DNA of 64,000 nt, from positions 124,001-188,000 of the forward strand of contig CAIYIS010000059.1 in NCBI GenBank assembly GCA_903926385.1. The letters are read 5' to 3'. The notes beneath the pieces were generated by a model. It worked only from the letters and a program-made list of their open reading frames with translations. It searched no databases and was not told the DNA's origin. Within the stretch, counting starts at the first letter, position 1, and every line of letters begins with the position of its first letter. This DNA comes from an uncultured Bacteroidota bacterium (lineage in GTDB: Bacteria > Bacteroidota > Bacteroidia > 2-12-FULL-35-15). Made by a program: the position numbers and the translations under genes. Shown in pieces: positions 17,585-51,280 of this stretch.

Positions 17585-17800
17585 CTATTCCACCACAATC
17601 TTCCTATTCACCCTGTTTTTATTTACATCTGTTATCTCCACAAAATAAATTCCTCTTTCCATTGCTCCTTTTTCTATTACTAATTCCTTGCCCGAAAAGT
17701 GAAGTGTTCTTATTTCTTTGCCCAACACATCTGTTATTCTTACTTCCGTGTTTTTTTGTTCGGTTGAGAAAGTAAGAGTGGTTTGGGACGTAAATGGATT
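17585..17800 (-). repeat. 3'-end module copy 2 (sorting-domain segment)
   Basis: Partner of 15839-16054. The five amino-acid differences (A/T, D/E, I/V, I/V, E/A) are mostly conservative. Confidence 0.85.
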
Positions 17801-19711
17801 TGGCGAAATGTTTACACCAATTGTTGAACCTGATTTGTCAATGCCTGTAGCAAGTAAAAAATGATTCATCGTTGTATTGGTTACTACAGGGGCATTGTAA
17901 TCAAAATAAATACTTGCTGTGTTTGGTATCTGAGAACCCGGAAGCAAATTTTGTATTGGTTTTATTCGGTATTGAAAATAGCCATGCGATGCCGGTTCGT
18001 TACTTGTACTATCAGCAAGCATAATATTAGGAAACGAAACAAGAAGGTTATTTCCGTTAAGTGTTGTGGTATTCGGGTGACTATAATTTATTAATTGAAA
18101 AGTGGACAAATCAAAAAGGGAAGAAAGTGTATCTGCTACATGTATATTAAAAGCTGGTGCTGTTCCTGTGTTTTGAAACTTTACAGTGTAGGTAAAATAA
18201 TCATTGTAGGGCGCTATCACATCCACAGGATATGTATCTTTTTCATTAGGGTCGTATGAATTTATTACAGTGTTGCAATATTGCATGGTGTTATTGGTGG
18301 TATTTGTTTCGGTAATAGAAGTAGCTGTTATTACAACCGACACACAAACGGTATCTCCCAACTGGGCATTTGTGTTTGTATTCATTATCAAATTAAAAGC
18401 TGTGGAATTAGTTATAGCTCCAAAATCGGGAATGGTGTAAGTGAAAACATTTCCTGCAACAGTTGGTGTTAACGCAGCTCCAAGAGGGCCTAAATAAGTT
18501 ACGGGTCCATTAATTGTAATTTGAACAGTGCCCGACACCCCTGCTCCGCAATTAATATTATTCCATTGTCCGGATTCTCCAGCATTGACATAAATGTAGA
18601 ACGGCTGTCCCGGGAAAACCCAACCTGAATTAATAATTGAGTGTACTCCTAAGTCAGTATTCGGGGAACAGGTTAAAGCAAAATTAACATCCGAAACAAA
18701 CGGATTTGCAACAACGGTGGTATCAACTCCCTGAGGACAATTCAAAGCAAAATTGGCTCCGGCTGTGTCTACAGCTATTCTGTATGTACCCGGAGCGGTA
18801 TAAAAATAATATCCTCCATTATTAGATGAATAAAGTTGAGAAACCAAAGTACCCATATTATCGTATTTCATTAAGTGAACATTATATACCCCCAACTCTG
18901 CACTATCGAGAGCACAATTGCTATTCCCGTCTCTAAAAACTTTTCCCGAAATTCCCTGATAAGTTATTGCAGGGCCGCCCAGGGTAATATCATCAAGAGT
19001 AAAAGCAGGGTTTGTACCATTGCCATCATCATCATTTATCCATCGGAATCCTATTTTTACATTGGGATTATTATCGCAGGTTGCAGGTAATGTAAATGAA
19101 TAAGGAGCCCAAATACCGTTTAAGCCGCACATTAGAGTAATGTTCGGCATCGCCAAAAAATTCCAGGTCAAACCATTATCATCCGAATACTCCACCATGC
19201 CATAATCCATCCCATTATCCCCACCCATCATATAGTTAAAATTTAAAACAATTCCGGTTTGCCCTGTACAATTAATGGTTGGAGATTCCGCACGTATATC
19301 GGTAGTAACACAAAAAAGGGTACCACATAGGCCACCTGCATTATAAGATGCCCCCTGATCATCCGTAAAATTATCATGTGATGCGATGTGTAATGTTTGA
19401 TTGGTAAGCAAAGGTAAATTACCACAACCATCCCCGCAATTGCCAATACCCATGCCAGCCTCAGAAGCGCTAACATACCAAACATTAGCCTCTGGGGAAT
19501 TAGTACTCGGATTAGAAACAGTCCAGAGCCCGTTGGCTCCCGAATAACTTGAAGCAAATTGCCCTTGTGTGCTGGCACATGTTCCTGTTCCAAAATTTTC
19601 TGTCCAGAAAACCTGTGCATTTGCATGCATCGAAAACAGTATTAATACGAATGATGTTATTGTAATTCTTAAGCTAATTACAATTTTGGAAGTAGTAATT
19701 ATTTTTTTCAT
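17585..19711 (-). CDS. Secreted multidomain protein (lectin-like, SdrD-B-like, DUF7619) with T9SS type A sorting domain
   Basis: I place the start at 19711 (708 residues, MKKIITTSKIV): it gives a clean signal peptide ending SMHANAQ, whereas the longer frame from 19762 would run through the likely promoter. The order is a cysteine-rich jelly-roll or MAM-like domain (to about residue 250, ending FTLDDITLGGP), a short carboxypeptidase-regulatory or SdrD-B-like domain (ISGKVFRDGNSNC, GGYYFYTAPGTY), a Cys-containing linker, a DUF7619-type domain (SYDPNEKDTYPV, YTVKFQNTGTAPAF, ASIYFDYNAPV) and the sorting domain. It is probably a surface structural or adhesive protein; no catalytic site is recognised. 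Confidence 0.85.
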   Translation of the reverse strand: MKKIITTSKIVISLRITITSFVLILFSMHANAQVFWTENFGTGTCASTQGQFASSYSGANGLWTVSNPSTNSPEANVWYVSASEAGMGIGNCGDGCGNLPLLTNQTLHIASHDNFTDDQGASYNAGGLCGTLFCVTTDIRAESPTINCTGQTGIVLNFNYMMGGDNGMDYGMVEYSDDNGLTWNFLAMPNITLMCGLNGIWAPYSFTLPATCDNNPNVKIGFRWINDDDGNGTNPAFTLDDITLGGPAITYQGISGKVFRDGNSNCALDSAELGVYNVHLMKYDNMGTLVSQLYSSNNGGYYFYTAPGTYRIAVDTAGANFALNCPQGVDTTVVANPFVSDVNFALTCSPNTDLGVHSIINSGWVFPGQPFYIYVNAGESGQWNNINCGAGVSGTVQITINGPVTYLGPLGAALTPTVAGNVFTYTIPDFGAITNSTAFNLIMNTNTNAQLGDTVCVSVVITATSITETNTTNNTMQYCNTVINSYDPNEKDTYPVDVIAPYNDYFTYTVKFQNTGTAPAFNIHVADTLSSLFDLSTFQLINYSHPNTTTLNGNNLLVSFPNIMLADSTSNEPASHGYFQYRIKPIQNLLPGSQIPNTASIYFDYNAPVVTNTTMNHFLLATGIDKSGSTIGVNISPNPFTSQTTLTFSTEQKNTEVRITDVLGKEIRTLHFSGKELVIEKGAMERGIYFVEITDVNKNRVNRKIVVE

Positions 19712-19736
19712 AATAGAGGTGGTGTTAAATTCTTTG

Positions 19737-19744
19737 TAAAGATA
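19737..19744 (-). promoter_or_regulatory. Probable -7 box, decides the start of the preceding gene
   Basis: TATCTTTA on the minus strand, one base off TAnnTTTG. It lies inside the longer open frame and 26 bases upstream of the ATG at 19711, supporting the shorter protein. Confidence 0.4.
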
Positions 19745-19903
19745 TAGTTTTTCTTTTATCAATTAAAAAAATGTTTACCAATCGTTTTTTACTTCTCCAA
19801 TTCCTCTCTCCATTTATTGCGTCTAAAATTTACATTTTTTATAGTATTTAAAAGTTGCACCAATCCATAAGATTATATTCGTCCGAACGCCTCACCCCTT
19901 TAT

Positions 19904-19924: not shown

Positions 19925-19955
19925 GCGTTGCTTAGTGAAACTTAAACATTTCGCC

Positions 19956-19981
19956 TTTGCAGGTGTTTTTTCACCTGCAAA
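19956..19981. repeat. Perfect 10-bp inverted repeat
   Basis: TTTGCAGGTG and CACCTGCAAA flank a six-T loop. It lacks a following T run on either strand, so a simple terminator is not obvious. Confidence 0.7.
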
Positions 19982-20131
19982 CCGAAGCCGCTCAAATTCT
20001 TTTTCAAATATATACTATTATACTACACAAAAAAAATCTGCTTATTTTCCTCCTTTCAAATTTAATTCTTCTCAAATTGGAATGATTTTTACAAAACCTA
20101 ACCCAAAAACCCTCTTTGAAAACAACCGAGA

Positions 20132-20530
20132 TTAAAGCCGTTTGGTTTGGGCTTAAGATGGATTCATTCCTACTTAAGCTGGAATGTGCCGGGTTTAGTG
20201 CAGAATGGATTGAGATGGTACAGAATCCATTTCGGGTTAAGCCGGAAGCAATGCGCATTAGGCTGGAAGCAATTCAATGTAATGCGGATGTATTCCTAAG
20301 TAATCTGCACCCAATCGGGATTAAGCCGGGAGGTGCTCTAAAGGCAACCTAATGGGGTTTTAACATATCGAAAGCTTTCCGGCTTAAGCCGGAAAGCTTT
20401 CATTCTTAAGTGGGGAGTGTCCAAATAGGGTTGGCAGGTGTCCGTCTCGAGCAGAATGCTTTTCGGCACAAGCCGGAATCATTCCAGCTTAAGCCGGGGT
20501 GCTTCCAGCTTAATCCGGAAACTAAAATTG
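20132..20530. repeat. Degenerate 21-bp tandem array A
   Basis: About 19 tandem units. The first 13 begin at 20132, 20153, 20174 and so on to 20384, an exact 21-base step; later units start at 20406, 20427, 20448, 20468, 20489 and 20510. The unit core is TTAAGCCGGAA, then three variable bases, then TTCC and a loosely conserved GC. Best copies: 20237, 20321, 20384, 20489. The array is far richer in G+C than its surroundings. It has no supported gene: the only open frame needs a TTG start and reads through the repeats as heptads. Confidence 0.85.
20370..20401. repeat. 32-bp perfect palindrome inside array A
   Basis: The sequence is its own reverse complement over 32 bases, centred on CTTAAG at 20385/20386. 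It arises where two flanking units extend the GGCTTAAGCC core by TTCC/GGAA and GAAAGC/GCTTTC arms. As single strand it could form a 14-16 bp stem with almost no loop, or act as a symmetric binding site. Confidence 0.9.
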
Positions 20531-20752
20531 GCATTTTGAATCTGTTTTAAACTGTTGCATTTCAAGGTTTTTACAAAAACTCCCCTTAATTTAGAACAAT
20601 AGTTTAGGTAAAAAGCAGCAAAAAATCAAATCTCATTGCTCTAAGGGGGATTTTATGCCCCAGAATTGACCTGAAAATTTAATGTGAAAAATTATTTTTT
20701 TAGAGGGTAATAAAATTGATAAAAATCATTTTTTTGTAATTTATTTCAGTAT

Positions 20753-20760
20753 TAATTTTG
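20753..20760 (+). promoter_or_regulatory. -7 box for the 225-residue unknown gene
   Basis: TAATTTTG, a perfect TAnnTTTG, 39 bases before the start codon; a TTG lies 16 bases further upstream, slightly closer than usual. Confidence 0.55.
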
Positions 20761-20799
20761 TAAAAAAATTAATCTCTTTATTAATAAAAACAAAATAAA

Positions 20800-21477
20800 A
20801 TGAAACTGTCACAAATTATTTCGGACTTCAAAACTGAGTTTGATGATGCGGTAGATTACATTAACACAACGGGGATAGCAACTCGTTTATCTATTGGCAC
20901 TGCTACATTATCTAATCTCAGTGGCAAGCGTACCACATTAGATACCACATTTGGTATTTATGCTGACCCTTTAACACATACGTCTGCTTCTGTTATAGCA
21001 GTAAACGCTGCGTATGATGCTGCACTGAAAGCTTACAGAGCTCTTCAAAAATCACTAAAAAACAGTACAGAAATAACACTGCTTCCGGCAGATATTGCTG
21101 CACTACACATTCACATGGATGCTACTCCTCGTAAAAAAGTACCGGCAGTAGATTATGCACCTAACAACACCGTTATTAAACAAACACACGGTGTGTCTCA
21201 AATTTTTGTAAACAACCCTACACCGGGACAAGAAACTAAGAAACGCAAACCGGATGATGTAGCCAAAATTGGCCGTGCTATATGTTATGTAGCTAGCGGC
21301 AGTGCGGCACCACAGCGTAAAGAATACACTAACATGAACGCAATAGGTTCGGTTGTGTTTAATCTTTTGCACGATGCCGACCAAGTAAATTTTGATTGTT
21401 ATTTATTTACCTGGTATATCAGCCCATCAGGCGAAGCCAGCCCTGAAAGTAAACCTTTAAAATTTACTGTTATTTAA
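20800..21477 (+). CDS. Unknown 225-residue protein with possible fibronectin-like C terminus
   Basis: I do not recognise a family. There is no signal peptide or membrane segment. Residues 1-110 are largely helical with Ala/Thr-rich stretches; residues 110-160 are Pro/Thr/Lys-rich; residues 165-225 look beta-rich and end in CYLFTWYISPSGEASPESKP, like the last strands of an Ig- or Fn3-like fold found in small Bacteroidota proteins of unknown function. It is a single-gene unit: promoter at 20753, strong terminator at 21495. It lies directly downstream of array A; whether the two are linked is unknown. Confidence 0.75.
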   Translation: MKLSQIISDFKTEFDDAVDYINTTGIATRLSIGTATLSNLSGKRTTLDTTFGIYADPLTHTSASVIAVNAAYDAALKAYRALQKSLKNSTEITLLPADIAALHIHMDATPRKKVPAVDYAPNNTVIKQTHGVSQIFVNNPTPGQETKKRKPDDVAKIGRAICYVASGSAAPQRKEYTNMNAIGSVVFNLLHDADQVNFDCYLFTWYISPSGEASPESKPLKFTVI

Positions 21478-21494: not shown

Positions 21495-21527
21495 AAAAAA
21501 GCCCCGCAAATTTTGCGGGGCTTTTTT
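21495..21527 (+). terminator. Terminator of the 225-residue unknown gene
   Basis: GCCCCGCAA/TTGCGGGGC stem with a T run (21522-21527), 18 bases after the stop codon. Confidence 0.92.
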
Positions 21528-21528
21528 G

Positions 21529-46858: not shown

Positions 46859-48397
46859 TTAACCAGCCCATCCTTCTCTATCCAAACTACGGTATTGAAT
46901 AGCTTCAGCCAGATGATTGGTTTCTATATTTTCGCTGCCATCTAAATCTGCAATGGTTCTGGCTACTTTCAGAATTCGGTCGTAAGCACGTGCCGAAAGG
47001 CCAAGGCGCTCCATTGCTGTTTTTAAAAGTTCGGTTCCAGATTCGTTTATTTTACAAACCTCTCTCAATTTTTTTGAACTGATTTGTGCGTTGCAATAAA
47101 CTCCCTCTTTGTTGGCATATCGTTTTTCCTGTATTTCCCGAGCTTTTACTACACGCTGACGCACACTCACACTTTTTTCGGAAACACGTTCGGCTGATAA
47201 TTCATTAAACGAAACTGGTGTAACTTCCACATGTATGTCTATTCTGTCGAGCAAAGGCCCTGATATTTTGTTCAAATATTTTTGCACAATGCCGGGGGCA
47301 CATACACAATCTTTTTCGGGGTGGTTATAATATCCGCATGGGCAAGGATTCATCGAAGCCACCAACATAAAGCTTGCAGGATATTCAACCGAAAATTTAG
47401 CTCTCGAAATGGTAACAATGCGGTCTTCTAATGGCTGTCGCATCACTTCCAAAACCGTTCGTTTAAATTCGGGCAACTCGTCCAAAAACAAAACACCATT
47501 ATGAGAAAGCGAAATTTCTCCGGGTTGAGGTACACCCCCGCCTCCGACTAAAGCAACGTCACTAATGGTGTGATGAGGTGAACGAAACGGTCGGGTAGAA
47601 ATCAACCCTACGTTTTTTCCCATTTTTCCGGCCACACTGTGAATCTTGGTTGTTTCGAGGGCTTCGTGAAGATTCATGGGAGGTAAAATGGTAGGCAATC
47701 TTTTTGCAAGCATTGTTTTTCCGGCTCCCGGAGGCCCGATTAAAATAACATTGTGTCCGCCTGCTGCTGCTATTTCTAAAGCTCGTTTAATATTTTCTTG
47801 ACCTTTTACATCCGAAAAATCGAATTCTACTTCATTAATTTTTGAAAAGAATTCTTCACGAGTATTTACAATTGTTTGTTCTAATACCGCTTTCTCATTG
47901 AAGAAGTCAATCACTTCAGTAATGTTTTCCACTCCATACACCTCCAAACCGTTTACAATAGCGGCTTCTCTGGCATTCTGTTTTGGAAGTATAATGCCTT
48001 TAAACTTTTCCTCTCTGGCCTGAATGGCAATGGGCAAAACACCTTTAATGGGTTGCAGTCCGCCATCCAGCGATAGTTCTCCCATAATAATATAATCACC
48101 CACATGGTCGGCTTTAATTTGTTCGGAAGCAGCCAGAATACCCACAGCAATGGTTAAATCGTAAGCCGAACCTTCTTTGCGAATATCGGCAGGAGCCATA
48201 TTAATAACAATGCTTTTGCCCGGCATTTTGTAGTGATTATTTCTCAAGGCAGCATCTATTCTTTTTTCACTTTCCTTTACTGCATTATCGGGTAATCCAA
48301 CGAGAAAAAAATTTACACCGGGAGTAATATTGGTTTCTACCGTTACTGTGGTGGCTGTTATTCCATAAACAGCGCTTCCGTATGTTTTTACTAACAT
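46859..48397 (-). CDS. comM: YifB/ComM-type Mg-chelatase-like AAA+ ATPase
   Basis: 512 residues: an N-terminal Lon-protease-like ChlI domain (1-170), AAA+ core with Walker [15 protein letters not shown] (about 219-232) and Walker B-type [10 protein letters not shown] (near 304), a cysteine cluster ([15 protein letters not shown], about 352-366) and a C-terminal Mg-chelatase helical domain. ComM in other bacteria is a helicase that promotes branch migration during natural transformation; whether this organism is competent is unknown. The promoter lies in a segment that is duplicated 680 bases away. Confidence 0.9.
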
Positions 48398-48407
48398 AAT
48401 TATTCTG

Positions 48408-48542
48408 TTTTTAAAAAGAGAGACTACGAAAGTACAAAATATCTAATAATTGCATCTTTAATTTCAGGGTTTATCGTTTATTTTTTTTAAGTTAATAGGG
48501 ATAAAAAAATTCTACTTCAGTCTCTCAATTTAAATTTAAACA
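48408..48542. repeat. Direct repeat copy 1 of the comM/T9SS gene divergent promoter
   Basis: About 135 bases closely similar to 49091-49229, including an identical stretch around TTTCAGGGTTTATCGTTTA and the GTTAATAG-GATAAAAAA block. Copy 1 lacks the start codon context that copy 2 provides. Confidence 0.8.
48427..48434 (-). promoter_or_regulatory. -7 box for comM
   Basis: TACTTTCG on the minus strand (TAnnTTCG form), 30 bases before the start. It lies within duplicated copy 1; in copy 2 the matching site is altered by one base. Confidence 0.5.
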
Positions 48543-48591: not shown

Positions 48592-48824
48592 ACAACTCCC
48601 CGAATCATTTTTACAACTCCCCCATTCCTTTTTACAACTCCCCCGAAGCTTGTTTTTAACTCCCCCGAACCTTCTTACAACTTCCCCTAACCTTCTTACA
48701 ACTCACCCGACCATTTTTACAACTACCCGAATCGTTTTACCAACTCCCCCGAAGTGTGTTTTTAGTTCCCCCGAACATTTTTACAACTGCCCGAATCATT
48801 CTAACAACTCCCCCGAACATCATT
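48592..48824. repeat. Degenerate 21-bp tandem array B
   Basis: Eleven tandem units, eight of exactly 21 bases and the others 20, 22 and 23. Unit pattern: ACAACTCCCCCGAA, two or three variable bases, then about five T. Unit starts: 48592, 48613, 48634, 48656, 48677, 48698, 48719, 48739, 48762, 48783, 48804. The sequence is strongly pyrimidine-rich on the plus strand. A frame through it has no usable start and merely reads heptads of Thr, Pro and Asn; I do not call a gene. Confidence 0.88.
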
Positions 48825-48907: not shown

Positions 48908-49090
48908 AAAATATATGGTAATGTAAAAAGACTATCTAATAAAAGTAATATATTTACGGAAATGCGGGTTTCGGAGGGTTAGCAGTATGTAAGCGTATTT
49001 TTGAGAACAAGGTAATTTGTTTTTCAAAAACCAAGTAACAAAATTGGGAAATAAAAAGCAAATTGTTTTTTAGGAAATTTTTGGAGCTAT
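48908..49090. other. Remainder of the comM/T9SS intergenic region
   Basis: AT-rich, no gene and no repeat structure that I can see between the hairpin and duplicated copy 2. Confidence 0.5.
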
Positions 49091-49229
49091 TTATAAAAGG
49101 GAGACTAGGAAAGTAAAAAATAGCTGAGAAAGGTGTCTTAATTTTCAGGGTTTATCGTTTATTTTTTTTAAAAGTTAATAGAGATAAAAAATAATACTAC
49201 TTTAGTCGCTCAAATTAAAAACTTAAACA
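49091..49229. repeat. Direct repeat copy 2, leader of the Omp28-like gene
   Basis: Partner of 48408-48542. It ends directly at the ATG at 49232 and holds a possible -7 box (TACTTTAG at 49197-49204, one or two bases off the consensus) for that gene. Confidence 0.8.
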
Positions 49230-49231
49230 GA

Positions 49232-51280
49232 ATGAAAAAAATAATTACACTATCGCTTGCGCTTATTGCTTGCAATGCATTAACCAAGGCACAAACATTT
49301 TCTGAAGATTTCGAAGCCTACACAGTGGGTTCGGCTTTAGGGCCACAATCGCCTAACTGGACAGTATGGAGCGGCACTGCAGGAGAGGGAGGTACAACCG
49401 ACCCATTGGTTGCCAGTACCGACAACCATACTACAGGAGGTTCTAAATCCATTCACTTTAGTTCGACCGCCTCAACAGGTGGACCCAATGATTGTGTATT
49501 ACCATTTGGAGGAACACCACTTACAACAGGACAATTTACCTTCAGTGCATGGTTCAAAATACCTACCGGAAAGGATGCTTACTTTAACTTTCAGGGAGGC
49601 TCACCACCTTACACTGGTACTACAATGTACACATTGGATTTGTGGATGAATAGTGACGGAAGTTTGGTAATTCAGAATTCGGGAACTCCGGTTTTGACCA
49701 CTACTCATCCTTTTGGCTCATGGTTTCAGTTAACTATAGATGCTAACCTTAACACAAACGATTGGAATTTGTTGATTAACGGAACATCGATGGGAACATG
49801 GACCAATGCTATCGACCAAGTAGGAGGCATTGATATTTATCCTGCTGATGCAACTGCAAGCTTTTGGTTAGACGATGTTTCTTACAACATTGTTCCTTAT
49901 ACATTGCCTGCATTGAACGGAGCAGTAACCAATTTAGTTGTTTCGAACGGATTGGTGAGTCAAGTTAGAACACCTAATGTAACTATTAGAAATCTTGGAG
50001 TAGATACCATTACTTCGTTCGATTTGGGTATAGTTGCTAACGGAACACCGTCTAATCAAACTGTATCAGGTGTAAGCATACCATCCTTGGCAACCTACAC
50101 AGTTACGGCATCATCTCCGGTTACGTTAATAAACGGAGTAAATACTTTTTCTACCACCATTAGTAATGTGAATGGTTTGGGAGCAGATGGAGATTTAACT
50201 GATGACAGTAAAACTTTAACTTTAACACCACATGTGGCTGCACCCGGAAAAATGGTAGTGGGTGAAGAAGCAACGGGAACATGGTGCCAATGGTGTCCGA
50301 GAGGAGCTGTATATATGGATATGATGCATAATAAATATGATGGATATTTTGCTGGTATTGCAGTTCACAATGGCGATGTAATGACAAACACTATGTATGA
50401 TGCAGGAATGGGTGGACTTATCCAAGGTTATCCAACTGCTTTGGTTGACCGTTTACCAGGATTAGATCCATCGGCTATGGAAACAGATTTCTTAACCCGT
50501 ATTCAGGTTGCTCCAAAAGAATTTATTGTTAACGGTGCCACTTACAATGCATCCACACATGTACTAAATGTTTCGGTTACCAGCACTATTCAACAAAATA
50601 TTACCGGAAACTACACCATAGCTTGTGTTATTACAGAAGACAGTGTTCATGGTACTGCTTCGGGATACAATCAGGCGAATGCATATTCCGGAGGTGGCTC
50701 GGGAGTTATGGGAGGTTTTGAACTATTAGGAAACCCTGTTCCTGCTGCTCAAATGCACTATAACCATGTGGCACGTATTATTAAACCAAGCTTTACAGGA
50801 CAGTATCAAGCTTTTGGAGCTTCAGCAAACACTGGTCAGGTGTTTACATGGAATTTTATTGACACGCTCAATGCAAGTTGGAATAGCAATAAAATTAACA
50901 TCATCGGAATGGTGATGGATCCAACTGGTAAAATTGATAATGCCGCTACTACTACCATTGCACAGGCAGTTACTAACGGTTATGTTTCGGGAACTTTGGC
51001 TACAGGAATAACTGAAGTAAATCAGGCAGACGCTACCGTAAGTTTATCGCCAAACCCTGCAAACGAGAATTCAAATATCTTCTTAAACCTTGTTACTGAA
51101 TCAACCGTTCAGGTTGCTATTTACAATGTAGCTGGTGAGTTGGTAGCTAATAAAGATTACGGAAGACTTTCAGGAGGTATGATGTTGCCTATTGAATCTT
51201 CTAAATTTGCTGCAGGTATTTATTTTGTTAATGTTACTATTGATGGTAAATCGTCAATGCACAAATTAGTGAAACAATAA
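49232..51280 (+). CDS. Secreted Omp28-related protein with thioredoxin-like motif and T9SS type A sorting domain
   Basis: 682 residues. Signal peptide to residue 21 (CNALTKAQ); a LamG/concanavalin-like domain (22-215, with FSEDFEAYTVG and SFWLDDVSYN); a CARDB-like Ig domain (222-335); an Omp28-related domain (340-580) whose start carries a thioredoxin-like CQWC motif (Cys352/Cys355 in TGTWCQWCPRGA); and a type A sorting domain (about 595-682, VSLSPNPANENSN, AAGIYFVNVTIDGKS). The CxxC could allow redox or metal chemistry outside the cell, which is inference. It is downstream of array B and followed by a strong terminator. Confidence 0.9.
   Translation: MKKIITLSLALIACNALTKAQTFSEDFEAYTVGSALGPQSPNWTVWSGTAGEGGTTDPLVASTDNHTTGGSKSIHFSSTASTGGPNDCVLPFGGTPLTTGQFTFSAWFKIPTGKDAYFNFQGGSPPYTGTTMYTLDLWMNSDGSLVIQNSGTPVLTTTHPFGSWFQLTIDANLNTNDWNLLINGTSMGTWTNAIDQVGGIDIYPADATASFWLDDVSYNIVPYTLPALNGAVTNLVVSNGLVSQVRTPNVTIRNLGVDTITSFDLGIVANGTPSNQTVSGVSIPSLATYTVTASSPVTLINGVNTFSTTISNVNGLGADGDLTDDSKTLTLTPHVAAPGKMVVGEEATGTWCQWCPRGAVYMDMMHNKYDGYFAGIAVHNGDVMTNTMYDAGMGGLIQGYPTALVDRLPGLDPSAMETDFLTRIQVAPKEFIVNGATYNASTHVLNVSVTSTIQQNITGNYTIACVITEDSVHGTASGYNQANAYSGGGSGVMGGFELLGNPVPAAQMHYNHVARIIKPSFTGQYQAFGASANTGQVFTWNFIDTLNASWNSNKINIIGMVMDPTGKIDNAATTTIAQAVTNGYVSGTLATGITEVNQADATVSLSPNPANENSNIFLNLVTESTVQVAIYNVAGELVANKDYGRLSGGMMLPIESSKFAAGIYFVNVTIDGKSSMHKLVKQ

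Follow-up and report, generated by a model that had tools for sequence, protein, structure and literature searches.

What holds a row of non-coding DNA units in step at exactly 21 bp when many of those units share only half of their bases? The question is raised by array A, which lies between two divergent genes (Table 1) in the window, a 64,000-nucleotide stretch of a contig from an uncultured Bacteroidota bacterium whose genome comprises 4.27 Mb in 85 contigs. We examined the register and symmetry of the array, its relatives in the same and other genomes, and the gene family beside which such arrays occur.

Register and symmetry of array A

The boundaries given for array A in the initial annotation were correct, and the periodicity proposed there is well above chance. 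In autocorrelation against dinucleotide shuffles, identity at lag 21 was 0.45 (z 8.5), as compared with a typical shuffle value of 0.25 and a maximum of 0.325 in 500 dinucleotide shuffles, and further peaks were present at lag 42 (0.384, z 5.9) and lag 63 (0.438, z 7.9). Written in lines of 21 bases, units 1-13 keep their register from position 20132, confirming the exact step described for them, and a one-base register shift follows after about 20384-20405. The array is not translated, as stops occur in all six frames (2 to 15 per frame) and no reading frame crosses it. The symmetric site that had been proposed is also real: the 21-column profile of the array is dyad-symmetric (z 4.8, permutation p 0.003) and a perfect 32-bp palindrome lies within it. 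The core TTAAGCCGGAA, earlier read as part of that site, held up in its symmetry at this locus but not as a general feature, as it is local to array A and other arrays have the same period with a different sequence.

Table 1. Features of the array A locus and array B, with positions in the window
Feature	Position	Strand	Remarks
Leader-like motif AAAGTTCTTTGAAATAA, weak copy	20108..20124	+	Motif occurs at the far edge of many family arrays
Array A	20132..20530	.	About 19 degenerate 21-bp units, non-coding; dyad-symmetric consensus near TTAAGCCGGAATNATTCCGGC; between divergent genes 17585-19762 (-) and 20800-21477 (+)
First array A units	20142..20178	.	92% identity to the array start of the C34 paralog locus; remaining array diverged
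Perfect 32-bp palindrome within array A	20370..20401	.	GAAAGCTTTCCGGCTTAAGCCGGAAAGCTTTC; 100% minus-strand self-match
Conserved probable promoter region, array-gene interval	20712..20799	+	Start of the 84% block shared with the C34 locus; putative promoter role
Gene, 225-aa protein	20800..21477	+	N-terminal helical bundle and C-terminal fn3 sandwich (predicted)
Intrinsic terminator-like hairpin at cassette end	21499..21528	+	AGCCCCGCAAATTTTGCGGGGCTTTTTT; C34-shared block ends at 21527
Array B	48592..48822	.	Second 21-bp array, unit ACAACTCCCCGAATCATTTTT unrelated to array A; between divergent genes 46859-48397 (-) and 49232-51280 (+)

A 21-bp period without a shared unit sequence

The wider tandem-repeat and lag-21 check suggested for this locus was carried out on stretches of the window genome totaling 520 kb, in which 24 of 27 strong tandem peaks had a lag of 21 or 42 with unit sequences unrelated to one another. 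Array density in this sample was about one per 20 kb, or about 200 when scaled to the whole genome. The step between similar units across arrays was exactly 21 in 381 of 398 instances, steps of 20 and 22 being rare, which supports the earlier view that strict spacing is combined here with loose sequence. The unit sequence differs from array to array: no word is shared among 89 consensus units other than A-rich ones, and the G+C content of the units spans 0.10 to 0.71. The property common to the arrays is therefore the 21-bp period and not a sequence. Dyad symmetry was detected in 36 of 80 arrays at p<0.05 (17 at p<0.01), and many young arrays have no dyad. Arrays are homogeneous at the center and decayed at both edges, with no polarity (17 of 33 arrays each way), as would be expected from unequal exchange.

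Arrays lie within 700 nt upstream of 31 of 395 genes and downstream of 10. They occur in 14 of 18 divergent intergenic regions of at least 300 bp, as compared with 8 of 40 other such regions (Fisher p 6e-5). Most arrays of the window genome do not adjoin a gene of the helical-fn3 family described below, and the neighbors of many are, judging by their translations, what we take to be ordinary housekeeping genes such as htpG or purD. Two near-identical 21-bp arrays were found at unrelated loci of the window genome (L054:1465-1944 and L060:4157-4644, corresponding to C36:41465 and C7:64157), only one of which adjoins a small-protein gene. Array B is flanked by two alike stretches of about 120 bp (gggtttatcgtttatttttttt...; 48410-48530 and 49090-49210) that lie about 680 bp apart, the latter directly upstream of the gene at 49232.

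Linkage to a family of small helical-fn3 proteins

The 225-aa protein encoded beside array A had no real match in Pfam, NCBIfam, PHROGs, or PADLOC. An AlphaFold2 model (mean pLDDT 91.7) predicts a helical bundle in residues 1-101 and an fn3 sandwich in residues 120-225, the packing of the two halves being uncertain at a pTM of 0.55. Foldseek matched the C-terminal half of the model to fn3 domains (E 2e-5), and two sister proteins match Pfam fn3, one of them (E 6.6e-6) above the curated cut-off, leading us to assign this half, on the strength of the model, a probable fn3 beta-sandwich fold. Charge tends to differ between the halves, basic in the fn3 part and acidic in the helical part, which is weakly compatible with nucleic-acid binding. 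There are about 10 paralogs in the window genome and more in several genomes of the same genus, and a scan with a sub-alignment of the family found relatives only in Bacteroidetes metagenome assemblies.

A locus was counted as linked when the 700 nt upstream of the family gene contained an array with a lag-21 score above 0.5. Such an array was found at 34 of 41 family loci against a base rate of 7.8% (odds ratio 63, p 1e-26), a count that is conservative because array A itself lies at the threshold and was scored as a miss, and a p-value that overstates independence because some of the 41 loci are closely related. When nine other lags between 17 and 28 were put through the same test, each was found at 0 to 3 of the 41 loci. 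The AAAGTTCTTTGAAATAA motif is present at 18 of the 41 loci and in 5% of control windows, an enrichment that is suggestive only because the motif was fitted on those same loci. Since other arrays match array A in period but not in sequence, what is conserved is the period together with a place beside one gene family, and array A is best read as belonging to a group of non-coding elements that a fixed 21-bp period, and not a sequence, defines.

Later relatives, fetched after the association was first seen, followed the same pattern. In a divergent helical-fn3 family, A3 (from C7:27890 and C45:33301), the best period was 21 or 42 at 18 of 21 loci, the arrays being mostly upstream and at three of the 18 loci downstream instead; the A3 member in the complete genome G134 has a weaker array (0.48). 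Family A1 was found, across a phylum sample of 396 genomes, only in the window genome and in G534, a member of another class, where arrays lie upstream at all three A1 loci (0.85, 0.69, and 0.86). Sampled stretches of genomes that carry A1 held 51 non-coding arrays of period 21 or 42 in 1.18 Mb (11 of 13 genomes) versus one in 0.73 Mb of genomes without A1 (1 of 20), these being raw counts that ignore kinship and come from stretches picked non-randomly. Within the window genus, arrays occurred in the sampled species that have the family and in none of those that lack it. Some of the carriers appear from their isolate names to be freshwater Bacteroidota. The single array counted in the genomes without A1 is a degenerate one in G119, which has neither A1 nor A3 (L220:14896-15369). 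It lies about 120 bp downstream of a gene for a 157-aa protein whose sequence suggests a mostly helical fold, and arrays may thus be linked to further small proteins as well.

The array A locus was compared with its paralog on contig C34. The proteins are 82% identical, and a block running from 20712 to the terminator end at 21527 is shared at 84% with one gap. Outside this block and the first array units, only dispersed repeats match between the two loci, and the interior of array A has diverged to background. Among gene pairs that are 66-84% identical, the arrays are either related (0.74-0.96) or unrelated (0.22-0.34), which indicates that arrays are replaced while the gene and the period stay. 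A strict pairing of protein and array sequence was rejected, as array similarity is 0.74-0.96 in some orthologues and lost in others at 67-82% protein identity.

Candidate functions and comparison with known elements

Our preferred explanation, to which we assign a probability of about 0.5, is that the arrays are cis-acting, phase-constrained and putatively protein-bound, and regulate small-protein cassettes. Each cassette would be ordered as an array in its 5' part, a promoter, a gene for a small helical-plus-fn3 protein and a terminator; the remaining arrays are found mostly between divergent genes, where they would act on divergent promoters. A dimeric or polymerizing protein would bind the array cooperatively, with dyad half-sites presented at every two helical turns, and the bound array would control the adjoining promoter or promoters. 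Recombination may keep the units of one array alike and occasionally swap a whole array, and the spacing would be kept by selection. Half-sites pair no better within units than between them (0.568 vs. 0.582), and this lack of covariation is as expected of independent protein half-sites and not of stems in RNA or a cruciform. Because no word is common to the arrays, they cannot all be read by one sequence-specific protein; either the reader would have to tolerate differences in sequence or many proteins would be needed. A more specific and more tentative proposal is that the 21-bp lattice is enforced with unit sequence left free, and maintained together with multi-copy helical-fn3 proteins that bind, measure or generate it, which would constitute an undescribed array-protein system in Bacteroidota.

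The absence of a common sequence is the strongest objection to a protein-bound array, and it keeps in play the main rival, that replication or repair duplicates DNA in 21-bp steps whatever its sequence, so that functionless arrays accumulate wherever long non-coding DNA is tolerated. Arbitrary unit sequences would be expected of such a process, as would homogeneous centers and decayed edges without polarity, like those of unequal exchange. It would also suit the presence of arrays beside ordinary genes, their quick replacement, and the occurrence of one array sequence at two unrelated places (C36:41465 and C7:64157). However, we consider such a neutral origin somewhat unlikely, as there is no known process with a 21-bp step and it leaves unexplained the upstream arrays at 34 of 41 family genes, the dyads, the bias toward divergent regions, and the strict phase where units share only half their bases. 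It is less probable again that the array is a recombination or mobility site, forming one end of an array-to-terminator cassette that some other enzyme copies from locus to locus, much as integron cassettes are copied. Arrays are indeed copied between loci, and the block shared by the window and C34 spans array start to terminator with no match outside; yet the paralogs are mostly old and divergent, no core site is common to the arrays, and no recombinase was found to track them. A RAYT gene does not do so either. RAYT and Argonaute were both rejected as machinery, the presence of neither gene following the arrays.

Three other readings fare worse. An array acting as transcribed RNA, either a structured leader or a source of small RNA, would accord with palindromic units that could fold and with the leader-like motif at the far edge of many arrays, but we regard it as improbable in view of the half-site values above, which give no compensatory pairing, the lack of an Rfam family (matches were sub-threshold and mostly in the terminator region), and the conserved promoter-like block that separates array from gene. 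The initial annotation had supposed that two helical turns per unit would place every unit on one face of the DNA. Although 21 bp does equal two turns, phased intrinsic curvature from A-tracts every 10.5 bp is very improbable, since A+T power at the 10.5-bp harmonic is depleted and not enriched (0.064 vs. 0.10 expected) and unit G+C reaches 0.71. A coding region with 7-residue repeats scarcely deserves credence: the period is a multiple of 3, a single open frame is common in young arrays, and stops are slightly less frequent in degenerate arrays than after column shuffling (1.05 vs. 1.44), but codon-phase conservation was detected in only one of 73 arrays at p<0.05, and the stops and one-base shift of array A were noted above; one-base shifts also argue against a maintained frame.

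Among the closest known elements are plasmid iterons and par centromere arrays, in which units about two helical turns long are likewise repeated in tandem and in strict phase ahead of a gene, in several cases with dyads; the direct repeats of 17-22 bp that characterize such arrays have their counterpart upstream of 34 of the 41 family genes. Iterons share one unit sequence and have a Rep or Par protein encoded nearby. In the arrays described here, units differ between loci, and the neighboring protein is without a Pfam, NCBIfam, or PHROGs match and has a probable C-terminal fn3 fold. Minisatellites (VNTRs) resemble them in their head-to-tail copies, homogeneous center, and decayed edges, but vary in period between loci, whereas the 21-bp period is fixed over unrelated loci, genera, and two classes and the arrays are linked to a gene family. 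The initial annotation had set array A apart from CRISPR, and this is borne out: the arrays are regular and in some cases bear a conserved motif on one side, but consist of contiguous 21-bp copies and not of a constant repeat with unique spacers, and their symmetric similarity profile differs from polar growth at a leader end. No cas gene was noticed among the genes that flank the arrays. REP/BIME elements with RAYT are comparable as palindromic intergenic repeats, and there is a RAYT-like gene beside the C34 array, but RAYT presence does not track the arrays. The REP-like hairpin GCAGGTGTTTTTTCACCTGC near array A (19953-19982; 26 genome copies with at most 2 mismatches) is a separate element, one copy of which adjoins the RAYT-like gene on C34. 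Bacterial heptanucleotide short tandem repeats have a lineage-wide fixed period in intergenic DNA, and in this they are alike; they differ in having 7-bp units of related G/T-rich words and were found in a genome without the helical-fn3 family (G025), in which non-coding arrays of 7-bp units were detected at lag 14 (L138:12524, L138:17486, L139:16518, and L177:2120).

The initial annotation knew of no named element like array A, and in keeping with this, full-text searches of an open-access library found neither arrays of fixed period and free sequence described nor any link between these and helical-fn3 proteins. The one near match concerns Planctomycetota (PMC9426551). A fixed-period array in front of nearly every gene of one small-protein family points to a DNA element not described before. 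It is usually the sequence that defines a tandem repeat; in these arrays the 21-bp length is all that the loci, the genera, and the two classes have in common. This calls for either an unknown fixed-step mutation process or selection on a DNA lattice, both of which are testable, and the tight link to a multi-copy uncharacterized protein family provides a handle for finding the partner and function of the arrays. A particularly dense set of 21-bp arrays is present in genome G295 (L123 and L124), where 40 kb contain about one array per 5 kb and many of these exceed an identity of 0.9.
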